Shown: positions 22,340-29,363 of the stretch, piece by piece | Numbering within the stretch: position 1 is the stretch's first letter | Layout: each line of letters opens with the position of its first letter | Source of the DNA: an uncultured Eubacterium sp. | GTDB lineage: Bacteria > Bacillota > Clostridia > Lachnospirales > Lachnospiraceae | Reading direction: 5' to 3' | Length of the DNA stretch: 51,695 nt | Assembly: GCA_947384955.1 (NCBI GenBank) | Contig: CANDJC010000014.1 | Coordinates: forward strand, 1 to 51,695 | Made by a program: the position numbers and the translations under genes | The notes under the pieces: model-generated | Seen by the model: only the letters and a program-made list of their open reading frames with translations | The model's database searches: none | Told to the model about the DNA's origin: nothing

Positions 22340-23176
22340 ATGTATCTGGAAAAAGAAAATGTATCCCTTTACTATGAAGTACATGGGGAAGGAGATACGC
22401 TCATACTGATTCATGGAGTTATCGTGGATGCGGACTTGTACCGGGAGGCGGCAAAGCTGCTCTCTAAATATTACCAGGTGATTCTATATGACCGCAGGGG
22501 GAATTCACGCAGCAGATGCAAAGGGAATCTCAGCTTTCGCATGGATGATCAGATAGAAGATATCAAAGACCTGATGGATGCCCTTGATGTGAAAACGGCG
22601 TATTTTGCAGGGGTCAGTGCGGGCGGCGTAATCGGGCAGTATTTTCTGCAGCGTTATCCAGAGCGGGTAAATCACCTGATTGCATACGAGCCCGCCATGC
22701 TGGGGGTACTGCTGGATGATGAAAATTTAAAAGCCTGGATAGAAGAAATGAAACAGACCGTTGCAAAGCGCAGATTCAATTCAGCGCTTCTTCGTTTTGC
22801 GCAGCATATCGGCCCGATGGATGAACGCGCGCCGGAAAAATCTCCTGAGGTTTCCCAGCGCGAAATGGAAAACCATGTGTATGCACTTACGCAGGAGTTC
22901 CCGGGAATGGCGGAGTATCAGCCGGATATGGAGAAAATGAAAGCATTAGCAGATAAAATTACGTTTGCGGCAGGGGAGAGAAGTACCCAGGCCGGCACGG
23001 TTTATGCCCGCGCGGCTGTACGTCTGGCGGAAGAAATCGGGAGGAAGCCGATTTATTATCCTGGAGGGCATAATCTTCCGTTTGAACTGCCGAGGGAGTT
23101 TGCGGTTTGTGTGATTGGGACGATGGCTTTTTTGGGGGGGGGTGGGACGCCGGGCGGAGCAGTTTTTTCCTTCTGA
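22340..23176 (+). CDS. Alpha/beta hydrolase with C-terminus replaced by a repeat arm
   Basis: A 278-residue hydrolase fold protein. DTLILIHGVIVDADLYREAA is the oxyanion strand, VILYDRRGNSRS the usual DxRG turn, FAGVSAGGVIGQYFLQRYPE carries the nucleophile Ser, and PIYYPGGHNLPFELPREFAV has the catalytic His, so the active site is complete. The last residues (GGGGTPGGAVFSF) are encoded by a nine-G run and the outer end of repeat arm 1, which supplies the stop codon. The original C-terminus was therefore probably altered by the element. Haloalkane dehalogenase/hydrolase-type activity on a small ester is likely; the substrate is unknown. Confidence 0.8.
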   Translation: MYLEKENVSLYYEVHGEGDTLILIHGVIVDADLYREAAKLLSKYYQVILYDRRGNSRSRCKGNLSFRMDDQIEDIKDLMDALDVKTAYFAGVSAGGVIGQYFLQRYPERVNHLIAYEPAMLGVLLDDENLKAWIEEMKQTVAKRRFNSALLRFAQHIGPMDERAPEKSPEVSQREMENHVYALTQEFPGMAEYQPDMEKMKALADKITFAAGERSTQAGTVYARAAVRLAEEIGRKPIYYPGGHNLPFELPREFAVCVIGTMAFLGGGGTPGGAVFSF

Positions 23177-23447
23177 TGTTCCGCTTCCAAAAAGTAAGAA
23201 GTTCTAAGTTTTCTGCGCAGGGCTGTGGCTGCGGACGGACCGGCGCCTGATTCCCTGGCGTTACTGGCAGCTGTAAGCAGTGGCACTGGCAGGCGCCTTT
23301 TGGGGACTTCGAAGCTTTATCAGGCTGGAAGTAATGTGTCCCCAAATCCTGGGTATTGAGCAGAAAACTAAGAACTTCTAACTTTTTTCCAGAGTCTCAT
23401 CAGAAGGAAAAAACTGCTCCGCCCGGCTGATTTTGGCTGAATTTACG
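23144..23447 (+). repeat. Composite repeat locus A, arm 1 (palindromic, ~300 bp)
   Basis: Reads from an outer end GGGACGCC to an inner end TTTGGCTGAATTTACG. The arm is itself a long inverted repeat: 23149-23178 is exactly complementary to 23398-23427 (30 bp). Inside are further dyads: AGAAGTTCTAAGTTTTCTGC with its near-complement, GGCGCCTG with CAGGCGCC, and TTGGGGAC with GTCCCCAA. Arm 2 is an inverted copy at 23800-24103. The arm overlaps the end of the alpha/beta hydrolase gene. Confidence 0.9.
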
Positions 23448-23799
23448 TATCAGAGCAAGAATGTAAGTTATCTGAGTTTCTTTAAATAAGGCGGGAAAAA
23501 CGTAGGATATGCTGTGTTGTAAATTATGATAAAATATTTATTAAACAACAGTTTACAATTTTTTATATTTTGGTATCTTTTAATAAAATCCAGGCCAGAT
23601 ATTGTACATAGTCATAATAATTGAATCTATATCTTGTACCTAATCTAAAACTTATAAACTGGTGTTATTAAAGATATGAATGCAGAAATTTTTCTCTTTA
23701 TTTATTCATTTATATAATTCCAAACCTTTTCTTGTTACCCTGATTATCCTGATAAACCTGCAAAATGTAAAATAAATACTATACAGTAAATCTTGCTAA
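23448..23799. repeat. AT-rich core of composite locus A
   Basis: 352 bp between the facing arms, with no ORF of note. It contains motifs shared with the core of locus B: TATATCTTGTAC (23628-23639), AGATATTGTACATAG, AACAGTTTACAATTTTTTAT and AAAACTTATAAACTGGTGTT. They read in both orientations. Confidence 0.7.
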
Positions 23800-24103
23800 C
23801 GTAAATTCAGCCAAAACCAGCCGGGTGGGGAAAGGGTTTCCTTCTTATGTGACTCTGGAAAAAAGTTAGAAGTTCTTAGTTTTCTGCCCAATACCCAGGA
23901 TTTGGGGACACATTACTTCCAGCCTGATAAAACTCCGAAGTCCCCAAAAGGCGCCTGCCAGTGCCACCGCTTACATCTGCCAGTAACGCCAGGGCATCAG
24001 GCGCCGGTCCGTCCGCAGCCACAGCCCTGCGCAGAAAACTTAGAACTTCTTACTTTTTGGAAGCGGAACATCAGAAGGAAACCCTTTCCCCGCCCGGCGT
24101 CCC
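23800..24103 (-). repeat. Composite repeat locus A, arm 2 (inverted copy)
   Basis: Inverted relative to arm 1, inner end CGTAAATTCAGCC, outer end GGCGTCCC. Its own outer stem (23820-23849 with 24069-24098) pairs with two mismatches, but its variable segment (GGGGAAAGGGTTTCC) differs from that of arm 1 (GGAGCAGTTTTTTCC), with matching changes on the partner strand. It lies 63 bases past the stop of the kinase gene. Confidence 0.9.
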
Positions 24104-24166
24104 GTCCCCCAAAAACCCTCCCACATACTACACATCCCATTATTTGCACAAAATAAGAAATTCATT

Positions 24167-24853
24167 TTATAAAAACAGCAGCACAGAAGCCGTAAACATA
24201 CCTCCGCTAACCTCCGTCTCCAGATTCCCTCCATACTTTTCAGCCGTTTTTTGCACATTTCCAAGCCCGATACCATGATGCTTCGGGTCCTTTTTTGTAG
24301 AAAAGAACCTCCCAAATCGTTTTTTTGGCGTTTCGCCACAGGGATTTTTTATTTTAATGATAAGAAACCGTTCAATTTTACGAATTGCCACCGAGATAAC
24401 AGGCGCAGCGCTGCAGCCGTCAGAAGTACAGTATTTTTTTGTATTTTCCAGAGCGTTATCCAGCAGATTAAATAAAATTACGCAGATATCGTCAGCCAGA
24501 ATACTGCTTTCTTTTGGAAACTCTGCATTCAAGTCCATCGCTATGCCAAGAGACTGTGCCTGGGCAAGGGTATGGTTTAAAATAGCATCTACGATATCCA
24601 CGCCGCTCCATGTAATATCCGGGAGCTCTCTGACTGGTTCGCTGACAGAAGTAACATAATCCATAATTTCCGTACACCCGCATTTTTGTGCCAGGCAGTA
24701 AATCATCTGCAGGTGATGATTCATGTCATGATACAGTCTGGCATTTTCACCGTAAACGCGGTTCAGCCGGCGGTGGTTTTCCTCGAGCAGTTCATTTTTC
24801 AGCTCTAAAAACCGTATTCTGCTAAGCATAAATCCCGTCTGTAGTTTCTTCAT
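24167..24853 (-). CDS. GHKL sensor histidine kinase, soluble (AgrC-like catalytic part)
   Basis: A 228-residue kinase. A short coiled coil leads into the H-box LYHDMNHHLQMIYCLAQKCG, followed by the N-box NLLDNALENTKKYC and the G-box GIGLGNVQKTAEKYGG of the HATPase_c_5 (AgrC/CitA-like) group. The N-terminal membrane sensor of AgrC-type proteins is absent: an in-frame stop lies just before the ATG and there is no hydrophobic segment. It follows the LytTR response-regulator gene by 93 bases on the same strand, so they form a two-component pair whose input must come from another protein or a cytoplasmic signal. Confidence 0.85.
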   Translation of the reverse strand: MKKLQTGFMLSRIRFLELKNELLEENHRRLNRVYGENARLYHDMNHHLQMIYCLAQKCGCTEIMDYVTSVSEPVRELPDITWSGVDIVDAILNHTLAQAQSLGIAMDLNAEFPKESSILADDICVILFNLLDNALENTKKYCTSDGCSAAPVISVAIRKIERFLIIKIKNPCGETPKKRFGRFFSTKKDPKHHGIGLGNVQKTAEKYGGNLETEVSGGMFTASVLLFL

Positions 24854-24946
24854 TGTTTATAACTCCATGATACACGTCTTGTTTTTGCCGTGCACTGATA
24901 AAAATTTATCCGGCAAAGGATAACCGGCTGTTTATTTTACAGCGTA

Positions 24947-25669
24947 TCAGATTCTGCTGCTCCAGAATTTATTCAGCTTCTGCTTTAAGTCCGGCAGGCG
25001 GCTCTGGGCAGCCGGGAGTCTGATATGCTCCGTTAAAATGCAGTCAGCGTGTTCAACCGCGCAGACGTGGCGCAGATTGACAATGCATCCTCTGTCGATA
25101 AAAACAAAATCACCGTCAGGAAGTTCTTTGTATACCTCAGCCAGTGATTTGCGGATTTTAATCGTTTCTGTCCGGTTTTTCATATGGAAGATACAGTTCT
25201 TTCCCTCGCGCATCAGATAGAGGATGTCTTTGAGCGGTATCCGCTCCATGCGGTTTTGGTTTGCAATCAGATAAGAATCCGTGCGCTGGGTTTCGATGAT
25301 GGAGGCGGCATCAAGCAGCGCGTGCGCCAGGCGCCCGGACAGCTGGTCTTTTGGCACGTAGCGGAAAATATTCAGTTCGTAAGCATCTACGGCATATTTA
25401 TAATGGGCTGTGACAAATATAATCAGCGCAGCCGGCAGTTTTTTATGAATCTGTTTTGCCAGTTCCATGCCCGAGAGGTCTGGCATTTCAATGTCCGCAA
25501 GCACCAGGTCAAAAAAGGCCCCGTCCTCTAACGCATACAGCAGATGTCCGCCGTTTTGATACGAACGAATATCAGGCAGAATATGCTGTTTTTCCAGGCA
25601 CCGGCGAACCTGGTTTTCAATATGCGCAAGCAAAAGCGGTTCATCGTCACAGATAGCAATTTGCAGCAT
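24947..25669 (-). CDS. LytTR-family response regulator (AgrA-like)
   Basis: A 240-residue regulator. The receiver domain (1-~120) has the acidic pair in IAICDDEP, phosphoacceptor Asp in DLVLADIEMPDLSGMELAKQ, Thr in IIFVTAHYKYAVDAY and Lys in FRYVPKDQ. The LytTR DNA-binding domain (~140-235) shows IPLKDILYLMREGKNCIFHM, LPDGDFVFIDRGCIVNLRHV. LytTR regulators often control peptide signalling, bacteriocins or surface functions; no such target is adjacent. It is the first gene of the pair with the GHKL kinase. Confidence 0.9.
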   Translation of the reverse strand: MLQIAICDDEPLLLAHIENQVRRCLEKQHILPDIRSYQNGGHLLYALEDGAFFDLVLADIEMPDLSGMELAKQIHKKLPAALIIFVTAHYKYAVDAYELNIFRYVPKDQLSGRLAHALLDAASIIETQRTDSYLIANQNRMERIPLKDILYLMREGKNCIFHMKNRTETIKIRKSLAEVYKELPDGDFVFIDRGCIVNLRHVCAVEHADCILTEHIRLPAAQSRLPDLKQKLNKFWSSRI

Positions 25670-25744
25670 GGTAAAAATTCCTTTTTCTTCGTTTACAGAC
25701 TGGATTTTCTTCTGGCCCGGCTGACACTTTCTTAAAGCAGAGCG

Positions 25745-26443
25745 TCAGTTCCGGCCAGACTGCAGCGCCGGGTCTTTGACATGATTTGCTTCAAAAGCCT
25801 TCTGTCTGTCGATACAGGTGCCGCAGCGGCCGCACGGAGAATCACCGCCCTCATAACAGCTCCAGGTCAGTTCATAGGGAACCTGAAGCTTCAAGCCTTC
25901 TTTCACAACGTCAGCCTTGCTGCAGCCGATAAAAGGAGCTTCTATGCGAAGTATTTTTCCGCTTCCTTCCATAACGGCATTGTTCATGCTGTCAAAAAAT
26001 GCCCTGCTGCAGTCAGGATAAGCGCTGCCTGTTGCATCATCCTGATGGGCTCCGTAATAAATACAGGTACATTCCATAGAAAGAGCCACGCTTGCGGCGC
26101 AGGATAAGAAAAGACCGTTGCGGAACGGCACATAAGTAGATACCAGGCCGTCCGGCTGTTTTTCTAACTGGCCCGCATAAGATTCTTTTGGAATTTCCCG
26201 TCTGGAATGAGACAGAAGGCTGCAGCTGCTTTCTGCAAAAACAGGTGTAAGGTCGAACTCTTTTCCGGCCAGCCCGTAATAGTTTAAAATCTGCGCAGCC
26301 GCTTCCAGTTCTTTTTTGTGCTTCTGGCCGTAGGTAATGGAAAGAGGAATGACATTTTCTTTTCCATACTGCCTGATGGCAAGACCAAGACAGGTGGTGC
26401 TGTCGACACCGCCGCTGAATAATACCATTGCTTTTTCTTTCAT
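25745..26443 (-). CDS. queC: 7-cyano-7-deazaguanine (preQ0) synthase QueC
   Basis: A 232-residue PP-loop enzyme converting 7-carboxy-7-deazaguanine plus ammonia and ATP to preQ0 in queuosine synthesis. The PP-loop is LFSGGVDSTTCLG (residues ~8-20), SITYGQKHKKELEAA follows as expected, YYGAHQDDATGSAYPDC is the conserved middle motif, and the zinc cysteines are in CYEGGDSPCGRCGTCIDRQKA-type spacing at the C-terminus. Last gene of the queT-queF-queC operon, 44 bases after queF, and under the preQ1 riboswitch upstream of queT. Confidence 0.96.
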   Translation of the reverse strand: MKEKAMVLFSGGVDSTTCLGLAIRQYGKENVIPLSITYGQKHKKELEAAAQILNYYGLAGKEFDLTPVFAESSCSLLSHSRREIPKESYAGQLEKQPDGLVSTYVPFRNGLFLSCAASVALSMECTCIYYGAHQDDATGSAYPDCSRAFFDSMNNAVMEGSGKILRIEAPFIGCSKADVVKEGLKLQVPYELTWSCYEGGDSPCGRCGTCIDRQKAFEANHVKDPALQSGRN

Positions 26444-26487
26444 AAAAGTTCCTTTCGCGTGTTTATAAAATTCGTGACGGGCAGGTG

Positions 26488-26985
26488 TTATCTGTTATCC
26501 ACTTTTTCCGGATACAGGTCATGATGGGTCAGCCGTTCGAACGCGGCCTGTTCCCAGCAGGTGCCCGGCTTTCCGTAATTACAGTATGGGTCTATGGAAA
26601 TTCCTCCGCGCGGTGTAAATTTCCCCCAGACCTCGATATACTTCGGGTCCATCAGGCGGATTAAGTCTTCCATAATAATATTTACGCAGTCTTCATGAAA
26701 ATCTCCGTGGTTTCGAAAACTGAACAGATACAGCTTGAGTGACTTGCTTTCGACCATTCGCTCTGCGGGCACATAGGAAATATAAATTGTCGCAAAATCC
26801 GGCTGGCCTGTCATAGGACAAAGGCTGGTAAATTCCGGGCAGTTAAATTTGACAAAATAATCATGATCCGGGTGCTTGTTCGCAAAAGTCTCCAGGACCT
26901 GCGGCGCATAATCATCCGGATATGCGGTATGCTGGTTTCCTAAAAAAGAGATGCCTTCTAATTCTTCCCTGGTTCTTCCCTGCAT
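26488..26985 (-). CDS. queF: NADPH-dependent 7-cyano-7-deazaguanine reductase QueF
   Basis: A 165-residue short-form (YkvM-type) QueF that reduces the nitrile of preQ0 to the aminomethyl of preQ1. The catalytic Cys and Asp are in [19 protein letters not shown], and the QueF signature for NADPH binding is [20 protein letters not shown]. The C-terminal [14 protein letters not shown] is standard. Its AGGAGG RBS is clear on the minus strand. It acts directly on the product of the downstream queC. Confidence 0.96.
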
Positions 26986-27100
26986 GCTGATATTCCTCCT
27001 GTACAGATGTATGTTTGCGGCAGATATTGTAAAACTGCCTGATAAGAGTTCGTCTGCTGTATTTCACAGCATGATATGTTTTTATGAAACTGTTAAGCGC

Positions 27101-27607
27101 TTATGCTTTGCGTACGTTCGCCTGTCTGCCAGCGGTAATCTGTCCTAAGGCTTTTACCAGCAGCACGCCGCAGACTGCCGGAATAATCTGTCCGATGCTA
27201 AGGCTTGCAGCCAGCGGCAGGTAAGGCAGCTTCAGCAGATAAGACAGCCAGATGGGAACGCCCATTCCCGGGACCAGGATAATCGGAATGACAATCAGCC
27301 ACCGGTTTAAATGCATAGAACGGATGCCGCAGATGAGCGAAGCAGTCACAATGCCAACAAGGCATCCTCCTAACATATCCAGAATGCCCAGCCCTCCAAA
27401 CAGCATGTTTGCGATGAAATTTGCGAGACCAAGGGGTATTACCAAAAAAGGGAACAGATAGGAAAGAGCATACAGCGCCGTAGCGATTCGGATTTGATAA
27501 GCTCCGAAAGAAAAACTCTGGGTAAAATACAGCACCGTTACATACAGTGCGATTACCATGGCAGAAAACGTCAGTTTCTGTACTTTGCTCATATCTTTAT
27601 CAATCAT
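27101..27607 (-). CDS. queT: Queuosine precursor transporter QueT
   Basis: A 168-residue membrane protein of the QueT (COG4708) ECF S-component family. Hydrophobic segments include LTFSAMVIALYVTVLYFTQS, SYLFPFLVIPLGLANFIANM, GGLGILDMLGGCLVGIVTAS and the C-terminal LSIGQIIPAVCGVLLVKAL. GAYQIRIATALY matches the conserved N-terminal QueT stretch. I take MIDKDMSKVQ as the start because GGAGG lies nine bases upstream. It imports preQ1 or a related base with a shared ECF energising module that is not in the window. It is the first gene of the operon and follows the preQ1 riboswitch. Confidence 0.92.
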   Translation of the reverse strand: MIDKDMSKVQKLTFSAMVIALYVTVLYFTQSFSFGAYQIRIATALYALSYLFPFLVIPLGLANFIANMLFGGLGILDMLGGCLVGIVTASLICGIRSMHLNRWLIVIPIILVPGMGVPIWLSYLLKLPYLPLAASLSIGQIIPAVCGVLLVKALGQITAGRQANVRKA

Positions 27608-27656
27608 AATAGTCACCTCCAAATAAATGCACAACAGCTTATATTGTTACAGCTGT

Positions 27657-27697
27657 CCCTAGTTTTGTTTAATGACAGGATGGTCTCGAACTGTCCG
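27657..27697 (-). promoter_or_regulatory. preQ1-I riboswitch aptamer
   Basis: Minus-strand RNA: P1 strand GACAG, loop UUCGAGACCAUC, P1' CUGUC, then an A-rich tail AUUAAACAAAACUAGGG. This matches the compact H-type pseudoknot of preQ1-I aptamers; the tail is very close to that of the Thermoanaerobacter example (UUAACAAAACAAGG). It lies about 40 bases downstream of the promoter start and 50-90 bases before the queT start, with a small hairpin (ACAGCT/AGCTGT) between it and the RBS as a possible expression platform. Its gene context, queT-queF-queC, fits exactly. Confidence 0.82.
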
Positions 27698-27741
27698 TTT
27701 CATATTCGGAAGCATGCTGCTTTATCAGCAGACATGGGTAG

Positions 27742-27770
27742 AGTATACAGCATGATTTGAGAAAATGCAA
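27742..27770 (-). promoter_or_regulatory. Sigma-A promoter of the queT-queF-queC operon
   Basis: On the minus strand: -35 TTGCAT, 17-base spacer, -10 TATACT. The predicted start lies about 40 bases before the riboswitch aptamer. Confidence 0.75.
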
Positions 27771-27919
27771 GATAAAATTTGCAGGGATGCCGCTGTCTTT
27801 TCCGGATTGGTAACAGTTTAGACAGGGGATTATATGCTGGTCTTTTGGATACTGGGTGATGGGAATGCAGTCTTCTGGGCGGGGTGATGGATAAGTGGTG
27901 GTTATGCGTTGCTTTTGAT

Positions 27920-28226
27920 GGGACGCCGGACGGGGGAAATGTTTTCCTTCTGATGTTCCGCTTCCAAAAAGCAGGAAGTTCTAAGTTTTCTGCATCAAGG
28001 TTTTGGCTGCGGACGGACCGGCGCCTGATGCCCTGGCGTTACTGGCTGCTGTAAGCGGTGGCACTGGCAGGCGCCTTTTGGGGACTTCAGAGTTTTATCA
28101 GCCGATAGATACTGTGTCCCCAAATCCTGGTTACTGAGCAGAAAACTAAGAACTTCCAGCTTTTTTCCAGAGTCACATCAGAAGGAAAACATTTCCCCCG
28201 TCCGACTGGTTTTGGCTGAATTTACG
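27920..28226 (+). repeat. Composite repeat locus B, arm 3
   Basis: Same orientation and boundaries as arm 1 (outer GGGACGCC, inner TTGGCTGAATTTACG). Its outer stem, 27925-27955 with 28176-28206, is 31 bp and pairs almost perfectly. The variable segment here is GGGGGAAATGTTTTCC, different from arms 1, 2 and 4 but matched by GGAAAACATTTCCCCC on the partner strand. Locus B lies in the gap between the divergent queT and MarR-type transcription units. Confidence 0.9.
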
Positions 28227-28935
28227 ATGGCAGAATTTACATCATGGAAGTTAATTTACATTTTATCAGCTTAAAGAGAACTTTATTTACGTGTAATTTG
28301 CTGCATGAATTTTCTGATGTATGAAATTTAGCTGGTGAACATAGAAGTGTCTGATTTCTGGCAGAAGCAAATTGAAATCAGAACTCAAAACAGCCAGTAT
28401 CTTACATAAAACACCCGTTTACAAATTTTCAGATTTCGATATATTTTTGTAATAATCAATACTATATCTTGTATATATTCGCTTCCATATTAATCTATAT
28501 CTTGTATCAATACTGTTTTACAGCTTTACTGATTTTGATGTATTATTGCGAAAATCTAAACTATATATTGTATTTATCTATAATTGTATAGTCAGGCTAT
28601 GGCATAGAATCATAAACTTGCAAATCGGTATTAATACAAGATACAGATTAAAAAGAAGCGAATATATACAACATCAGTTTGCAAGTTTTCAGATTTTGAT
28701 ACATTTTGGATAAACTCAAACTATGTGTTGTATATATTTTCCATAATTCAAACTATATCTTGTTCTCAAATAAAAACTTATAAACCGATGTAACCTATAA
28801 TATGGTATGAAATCAAAAACTTGTAAACCGATGAAGTAAATATAAGATACCGCATGGATTATTATAAAAATATATCAAAATCTAAAGCCATAAACTGGTG
28901 TTACATAAAATAAAAACTTACAGCCGGACGAAAAA
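28227..28935. repeat. AT-rich core of composite locus B with iterated motifs
   Basis: 709 bp with no credible ORF. It is built from degenerate units in both orientations. One motif is (C)TATATCTTGTAT, seen at 28463-28474 and 28496-28507 and in variant form at about five other places, including inverted ATACAAGATACAG. The other is GTTTACAAGTTTTCAGATTT continuing TTGATATATTTT, near 28413, 28513 and 28677, with inverted forms near 28815 and 28865. Spacing is irregular, about 30-100 bp. Confidence 0.7.
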
Positions 28936-29237
28936 CGTAAATTCAGCCAAAACCAGCTGGACGGAGCCGTTTTTTCCTTCTGATGTGACTCTGGAAAAAA
29001 GTTAGAAGTTCTTAGTTTTCTGCTCAGCACCCAGGATTTGGGGCTCACTGCCTGCTCCCAGATAAAACCCTGAAGCCCCAAAAGGCGCCTGCCTAAGCCA
29101 CTGTTTAGAACTGCCAGTAACGCCAGGGCATCAGGCGCCGGTCCGTCCGCAGCCACAGCCTTGCGCAGAAAACTTAGAACTTCTTACTTTTTGGAAGCGG
29201 AACATCAGAAGGAAAAAACTGCTCCGTCCAGCGTCCC
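28936..29237 (-). repeat. Composite repeat locus B, arm 4 (inverted copy)
   Basis: Inverted relative to arm 3. Outer stem 28956-28985 with 29203-29232 pairs with two mismatches. The inner TTGGGGAC/GTCCCCAA stem of the other arms is TTGGGGCT/AGCCCCAA here, changed on both sides so that pairing is kept. The outer end (AGCGTCCC) lies 46 bases before the promoter of the MarR-citrate synthase operon. Confidence 0.9.
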
Positions 29238-29283
29238 AAAAGAACCACTCCCCCCATCTTTTGTTAAAAAAATATAAAATCTA

Positions 29284-29311
29284 TTGACATCTGAAAAATA
29301 TGCACTATAAT
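29284..29311 (+). promoter_or_regulatory. Sigma-A promoter upstream of the MarR-citrate synthase operon
   Basis: Consensus -35 TTGACA, 16-base spacer, consensus -10 TATAAT. The predicted start is near 29318, giving a 295-base leader that contains a terminator and a CIRCE-like dyad. Confidence 0.8.
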
Positions 29312-29363
29312 GAATAAATAAAATAGTAAAACACTTTCATACAGGCAGTCATAAAGTTCCAGG

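Follow-up and report, generated by a model that had tools for sequence, protein, structure and literature searches.

A high-copy paired hairpin repeat related to TwoAYGGAY and arranged like a BIME in an uncultured Eubacterium species

We describe a composite repeat that occurs twice in a 51,695-nt stretch of DNA (the window: contig CANDJC010000014.1, positions 1 to 51,695, assembly GCA_947384955.1) from an uncultured Eubacterium sp. of the Lachnospiraceae. In each composite, a pair of mutually facing arms flanks an AT-rich core, which often contains a repeat of its own, and each arm is a long stem enclosing a two-hairpin center. Among 89 copies compared from the source genome all stems differ yet stay complementary, and within a composite the two arms resemble each other in their centers but not in their stems. 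This is a genuine, structured repeat, a diverged relative of the Rfam family TwoAYGGAY (RF01731) arranged like a bacterial interspersed mosaic element (BIME). Our preferred explanation is that it is a high-copy, BIME-like composite of TwoAYGGAY-related hairpin arms, in which stem matching would be kept by selection and recopying together, the selected form would be an RNA, and the pair may act at transcript ends. We give this explanation as a whole a probability of about one half, with separate weights on its parts as discussed below. The components in the window are as follows.

23043 to 23143, minus strand: outward tail of arm 1, C-rich and G-poor (by eye, plus the family average)
23144 to 23447, plus strand: arm 1, running from outer to inner end; its minus strand, read inner to outer, is the RNA-like (TwoAYGGAY) one
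23448 to 23799, no strand: core of composite 1, AT-rich, 26% GC
23526 to 23668, plus strand: a core repeat element whose ends are inverted; other cores hold related copies
23800 to 24103, minus strand: arm 2, mate of arm 1; the RNA-like strand is the plus strand
24104 to 24204, plus strand: outward tail of arm 2, C-rich and G-poor (by eye, plus the family average)
27819 to 27919, minus strand: outward tail of arm 3, C-rich and G-poor (by eye, plus the family average)
27920 to 28226, plus strand: arm 3; its minus strand at 27960-28171 matches RF01731 TwoAYGGAY (70.8 bits, cut-off 43)
28227 to 28935, no strand: core of composite 2, AT-rich, 28% GC; core repeats lie near 28406-28506 and 28662-28791
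28936 to 29237, minus strand: arm 4, mate of arm 3
29238 to 29338, plus strand: outward tail of arm 4, C-rich and G-poor, clear in the first ~40 nt only (by eye, plus the family average)

A sequence-only reading of the window had reported four arms in two inverted pairs, each arm an inverted repeat in itself and each pair facing an AT-rich core, and all of this was recovered. Positions 23137-23448 and 23799-24110 are 92% complementary across 312 nt, 27920-28226 and 28936-29237 form the second pair, the individual arms contain inverted repeats of 67 to 71 nt with 85 to 88% matching, and the cores measure 354 nt (26% GC) and 711 nt (28% GC), with no open reading frame (ORF) of at least 80 amino acids wholly within either. 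The variable stem segments that it singled out are present and have their complements within the same arm, with the qualification that the fourth arm (GGAGCCG opposite CTGCTCC) has one mismatch. The outer stem, which it put at ~30 bp, is longer, with RNAalifold giving 58 outer pairs on the 89 arms.

The source genome (G000; 5.06 Mb in 271 contigs, rated 95.9% complete) carries many such arms, here called type C; those of G002, a second species of the genus, are called type B. A whole-genome search with a 17-base arm motif, allowing up to 3 mismatches, gave 159 places (81 + 78) versus 22 for the reversed motif, so we estimate that there are ~140 type-C arms. Among the first 30 loci, in which two composites are counted twice, an inverted mate arm was present in 25 at >80 bits and in 27 with a profile search, and because the contig ends inside the second arm in 15 of the 30, the repeat accounts for part of the assembly fragmentation. 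Counting every orientation, 37 of 38 neighboring arm pairs within 2 kb are inner-facing, the remaining one being a split mate in L060; a separate set restricted to inner-facing pairs gave 36 distinct cores between two arms of >150 bits, spanning 69 to 1527 nt in the stretches fetched. Arm pairs in G002 are oriented 41 -+, 6 ++, 5 --, and 2 +-, with overlapping loci not de-duplicated. Three type-B arms, including a tandem pair that are almost the same in sequence, stand together at L090:1297-2491 in G002, which is a local duplication. A type-C 37-mer had no match in the named genomes searched, a set that may omit records near G000.

The composites likely lie between genes; ORFs overlapping an element by at least 150 nt were dropped before flanking genes were counted. 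Mechanical ORFs of at least 100 amino acids overlap 27 of 47 elements by at least 150 nt, ORFs of at least 200 amino acids overlap only 3 of 47, and the arms themselves yield mechanical ORFs of at least 100 amino acids.

The covariation of the stems, noted from the four window arms, extends far beyond them; a lack of it outside the four, which the sequence-only reading had named as one outcome that would refute it, is not what the genomes show. The 89 arms used for this are distinct, score at least 190 bits, and are near full length (columns with gaps in at least 70% of arms were dropped), and the closest two are still 5.7% apart. Their 7031 stem cells comprise 6876 Watson-Crick pairs (97.8%), 65 G.U, 16 A.C, 51 other combinations, and 23 gaps, and the paired fraction of 0.978 falls to 0.285-0.375 when partners are shifted. 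The 91 type-B arms of G002 behave similarly, with 6259 Watson-Crick, 148 G.U, 41 A.C, and 104 other cells, and 0.947 paired versus 0.265-0.332 in the slide control. In a set of 40 arms, 98.8% of cells are paired and two-sided change occurs at 33 of 81 pairs, compared with 17.5 ± 1.7 in shuffles and 4 to 8 when partners are slid by 1 to 3 columns; cells changed on both sides number 253, compared with 71.6 ± 8.7 shuffled and 11 to 24 slid.

The sequence-only reading knew of no named family with this layout. Most of the window arms do fall below the RF01731 cut-off (three of the four), but arm 3 exceeds it on the inner-to-outer strand, and its framework is shared with copies elsewhere in the genus. 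Ten G000 loci holding ~23 arms gave two RF01731 matches, and there are at least three in the genome (17 of 224 candidates scored). Across 20 loci from the genus, 11 matches fall in 8 loci, all from G012, G007, and G011 and none in the loci of G002, G004, or G008; these genus copies score 94.8 to 118.8 bits, plus one cut-off match at 57.9. In a sample of 150 family genomes, 21 including G000 have matches among the candidates scored, and six have at least 17 copies, all 17 scored candidates matching; among the matches listed, eight neighboring ones within 600 nt all point apart, as in G000.

According to the comparative-genomics screen of Weinberg et al. (PMC2864571), TwoAYGGAY is a probable RNA that is probably neither cis-regulatory nor a switch, and Rfam types it as Cis-reg. 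The other refuting outcome named by the sequence-only reading, that an arm belongs to a cataloged repeat, thus applies in part: one arm matches a family in the Rfam catalog, but a limited literature search found no paper that treats this family as a paired repeat. The G000 arms share with RF01731 the long outer stem around two hairpins, on the same strand. They differ in having enlarged loops nearly all without AYGGAY, in forming inverted pairs around AT-rich cores at >100 copies, and in hypervariable stems that extend past the Rfam model. Within the central 150 nt of the 89 arms ACGGAC occurs three times and A[CU]GGAU never, so these arms do not have the two AYGGAY hairpin loops, although every one of them has at least one GGA there. 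No AYGGAY was seen by eye in the hairpins of type-B arms. In most type-B arms (e.g., L087, L088, and L090) the sequence ACGGAC, itself a fit to AYGGAY, lies in the outer internal loop, on its 3' side, rather than in a hairpin loop.

How the stems stay matched while changing was addressed by counting events on a stem tree, every side that changed being charged. For G000 this gives 174 double changes from one Watson-Crick pair to another (86 of transversion type) and 72 single departures (27 to G.U, 12 to A.C, and 33 other), with 60 of the 72 departures and 107 of the 174 double changes on terminal branches. A route through G.U intermediates should favor transitions. The ratio of transitions to transversions among double changes is 89:80 in G000, compared with 764:792 in unpaired columns on the same tree, and 75:63 in G002, compared with 211:163; this lack of transition bias points away from paths through G.U. 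Double changes also cluster at adjacent pairs on one branch (20 versus 6.9 ± 2.4 expected). Together these suggest, short of proof, that each side can serve as template for recopying its partner, and it is on these two internal tests that the claim of unusual double changes rests.

A second level of recopying is suggested by the two arms of a composite. Mates of one composite make up 9 of 19 mutually nearest arm pairs, and the centers of mates in 26 composites are 0.910 alike, compared with 0.789 for random pairs (p 6e-17); the stems of the same mates are no more alike than random ones (0.844 versus 0.838, p 0.36), even though stems are on average more conserved than centers. Alike centers with unlike stems are consistent with recopying over short range, at two levels, between inverted repeats that lie near each other. 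We therefore lean, with slightly better than even confidence, toward a process in which much of the matching is renewed by template switching between nearby inverted repeats (stems within an arm, centers between arms), with selection keeping certain unpaired sites. Template switching that keeps hairpins matched is described in PMC8794818, where, as here, multibase compensatory change would occur in one step without need of G-U intermediates; that system was inferred for RNA genes generally, whereas here the process is suggested at two nested levels in a bacterial repeat family.

We consider two other accounts to be unlikely. In the first, selection on RNA structure is sufficient, the arms being TwoAYGGAY-type RNAs and their two-sided changes the product of normal compensation that passes through G.U or mildly harmful intermediates. 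The Rfam match on the same outward strand, the conserved unpaired positions, the excess of G.U over A.C, and the presence of CsrA in all 21 TwoAYGGAY genomes, with CsrA-like sites in many relatives' loops, all speak for it, as does the behavior of the G002 stems described below; the unbiased and adjacently clustered double changes speak against it, as does the scarcity of wobble pairs (0.9% of cells in G000 and 2.3% in G002). In the second, the repeat corrects itself: its inverted repeats, which are nested at two levels, would serve as templates for one another, and strong covariation would arise largely without RNA selection. Were this true, TwoAYGGAY would illustrate a DNA-level palindrome correction that imitates the covariation used for RNA discovery, and CsrA loops and C-rich tails would have been added where a lineage used the hairpin as a two-way transcript-end element. 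Correction acting alone is disfavored because conserved U.U mismatches sit inside the stem, in 88 of 89 arms at one position and 81 of 89 at another. 

G.U also exceeds A.C modestly on the outward strand in both species, and this excess and the U.U mismatches suggest that selection acts at the RNA level too; the selected form is probably an RNA hairpin read outward from the core. Structure selection and side-to-side copying, the two causes that the sequence-only reading had offered, thus each have support.

Beyond the outer ends of the arms, the outward strand is rich in C and poor in G. The C-over-G skew is 0.65 in the first 20 nt and fades by ~250 nt, compared with a baseline of -0.12, and CCCC occurs within 60 nt in 78 of 93 flanks while GGGG occurs in none. 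This skew is independent of the direction of the neighboring gene (0.57 in 34 flanks with the gene toward the element, 0.50 in 47 with it away), and a similar tail in G002 has a skew of 0.53 that falls to 0. An excess of C over G of at least 15 in 78 nt is found in 81 of 93 outward flanks, in 1 of 93 on the other strand, and in 140 of 1000 random windows; a spacing rule for Rho loading is satisfied by 66 of 93, 1 of 93, and 344 of 1000, respectively. In base composition these tails resemble Rho loading sites.

A transcript reading through from either side would meet one arm in the outward sense and then a C-rich, G-poor tail. Since such a transcript has an arm and a tail in its path whichever way it runs, we tentatively propose that the pair may be a two-way transcript-end element, acting by termination plus 3'-end protection, a role that we rate as possible but doubtful. 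In PMC13289151, Rho-dependent ends are trimmed back to stabilizing hairpins, and the likeness is in a hairpin that lacks a U-tract (by eye) and leads into a C-rich, G-poor stretch; the differences are that the present element has no Rho match in its assembly and has a symmetric two-way layout. Intrinsic terminators were considered and set aside, no U-run being seen after the outer stem (by eye only).

Several results weigh against our explanation in one or another of its parts. With respect to copying, single-sided departures in G002 (74 G.U, 36 A.C, and 73 other, 183 in all) outnumber double changes (138), so that stem matching is looser there; this is as structure selection alone would have it, and we have weighted the copying step down for this reason. 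Trees of recombining repeats can also inflate event counts, and 'further pair types' are not above shuffles (55 versus 54.6 in the 40 arms). With respect to RNA selection, the strand asymmetry is modest, with column sign tests at p 0.041 and 0.043 and events at p 0.024 on the stem tree, or 0.090 once two hot pairs are removed (the whole-arm tree gives p 0.004 and 0.016). In other genera predicted G.U pairs are equal on the two strands (94 versus 97 in 29 fold-predicted loci, 28 from other genera and L112 from G000), and the RNA strand is thus not favored there. With respect to a role at transcript ends, other genera have only a weak tail (skew 0.10 to 0.14 in the first 80 nt and none further, 22 loci), and the composites are not clearly biased toward gene ends, those with both flanking ORFs called lying in 14 tandem, 7 divergent, and 6 convergent settings (162, 34, and 30 for all neighboring ORFs). 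The Rho RNA-binding domain was not found in the G000 assembly, while 11 of 13 genomes of the genus (including G002) and 146 of 150 family genomes have it. Sigma70-like sites in the cores are not clearly enriched (250 versus 225 ± 14), for which reason promoters in the cores were dropped as a candidate, and no conserved upstream box was seen by eye; autonomous transcription is accordingly unsupported. Lastly, one of 51 cores, that of L026, holds a cellular gene, tRNA_edit, between its two arms (L026:2215-2703, PF04073, 89.1 bits, E 3e-25), so the earlier statement that the element lacks any protein gene stands for both window cores but not for all copies.

Besides G000, three of the 150 family genomes are without a Rho match, two of them only 67% complete; within the genus, G012 is also without one.

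The association with CsrA raises a different possibility, that the arms are CsrA-binding decoys or CsrA-controlled Rho terminators. A role as a CsrA-binding small RNA has been proposed for TwoAYGGAY (PMC4333381). CsrA is present in 21 of 21 TwoAYGGAY genomes versus 82 of 150 overall (hypergeometric p 8e-7, kinship uncorrected), and many of the arms in those genomes have ACARGGAUGU-like loops, close to the CsrA SELEX consensus RUACARGGAUGU reported in PMC7652899, which also describes CsrA exposing rut sites at pgaA. The C-rich tails and the GGA found in every one of the 89 arms are compatible with this. Within the genus such loops are kept in G012 and in some copies of G007 and G011, and are gone in type B (G002, G004, and G008) and in G000, whose copies, to judge from the arms compared, have lost the CsrA-type hairpin loops of their relatives. 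The near absence of AYGGAY from the G000 arms and from type-B hairpins (by eye, and with ACGGAC in the outer internal loop of most), together with the lack of a Rho match in the G000 assembly, makes this the least probable of the explanations that we weighed, and as a function in the G000 species the CsrA decoy was rejected despite complete co-occurrence with CsrA elsewhere. Short, divergent CsrA paralogues accompany the canonical csrA (L134:420-743, L135:8462-8761, and L136:2477-2764). We do not count these CsrA-like genes near arms as parts of the element: those in L134 and L136 adjoin a flagellin-like gene, and they are taken to be flagellar paralogues (gene names here and below are assigned from sequence).

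We also weighed whether the repeat is a mobile miniature element, of the repetitive extragenic palindrome (REP)/BIME kind or like a miniature inverted-repeat transposable element, mobilized by a transposase acting in trans; the selected form would then be a DNA hairpin or cruciform, and the element would have no function for the cell. High copy number and inverted pairing would suit this, as would the composite at L056:2654-3465, which is flanked in G000 by an ABC permease gene on one side and a glycosidase-like gene on the other; in G002 the same gene pair is separated by ~200 bp with no arm, and the composite was probably gained or lost as a unit. The empty site is too diverged to read a target duplication, and the outer ends of the element are inverted. 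L056 is the only one of 12 G000/G002 locus pairs with matching flanks to match on both sides; at another gene, an arm lies on the same side in both species, type C in G000 and type B in G002 (by eye). A clean empty site at queT was sought and not obtained, since the G002 and G005 orthologues have no arm but their homology stops short of the arm position, and the G004 contig ends. Y1_Tnp occurs in 11 of 21 TwoAYGGAY genomes versus 88 of 150 overall and is thus not associated with the repeat, which led us to discard REP/RAYT mobility even though G000 has two Y1_Tnp matches, one with stops; nor is there sign of a recent burst, given that no two of the 89 arms are closer than 5.7%. On balance we regard mobility of this sort as doubtful.

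The contents of the cores bear on the same question. Cores resemble one another far more than expected (220 of 1275 core pairs match, versus 2 of 1275 when shuffled), and one shared piece is ~140 bp long with inverted ends, a feature that a mobile element would share. It lies on the inner side of an arm in 13 of 15 loci fetched around its copies, three with type-C arms and ten with low-scoring arms, of which one (L153) was read as type B; the exceptions are L157, with a copy outside the pair, and L151, with two copies and no arm found. In the gene-poor, AT-rich stretch L151:1-2750 the two core elements are inverted relative to each other and separated by 1.6 kb, with only a 132-amino-acid mechanical ORF between them. 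ORFs of at least 100 amino acids number seven in 51 cores, versus 1.5 in shuffled cores. No autonomous version, one whose core would encode its own mobility, was recovered in a Pfam search of six core proteins, one per core, from six of these ORFs (the seventh is antisense to the tRNA_edit gene), the single match being tRNA_edit, a cellular gene; two other searched ORFs are repeats by eye. Some cores contain tandem arrays (L018:147-607, L069:265-884, and L011:298-760) of ~100-nt partial copies of the inner arm half in a single orientation.

Like BIME/REP repeats (PMC2817692), the present elements are high-copy, probably intergenic palindromes in alternating orientation and come in inverted pairs. 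They differ in their arms of 250 to 300 bp with two inner hairpins, in the lack of association with a Y1 transposase, and in stems that are hypervariable on both sides. REPs, by comparison, are short. With AYGGAY loops nearly absent and a Y1 association not found, we file the element neither as a TwoAYGGAY member nor as a BIME.

Covariation is a main computational line of evidence for RNA structure, and a hundred fast-changing, matched stems per genome offer a direct measure of one-step versus two-step paired change. TwoAYGGAY, known as a candidate RNA, is recast as a repeat that reaches high copy number, frequently in pairs, in some of the family genomes sampled and that is linked to genomes with CsrA. 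The possibility that it is a portable element acting at transcript ends in both directions is open to test.

Elsewhere in the window, a weak preQ1 riboswitch match (27653-27699, minus strand, 24.8 bits versus a cut-off of 39) lies upstream of a queT-like gene, beside queC- and queF-like genes.

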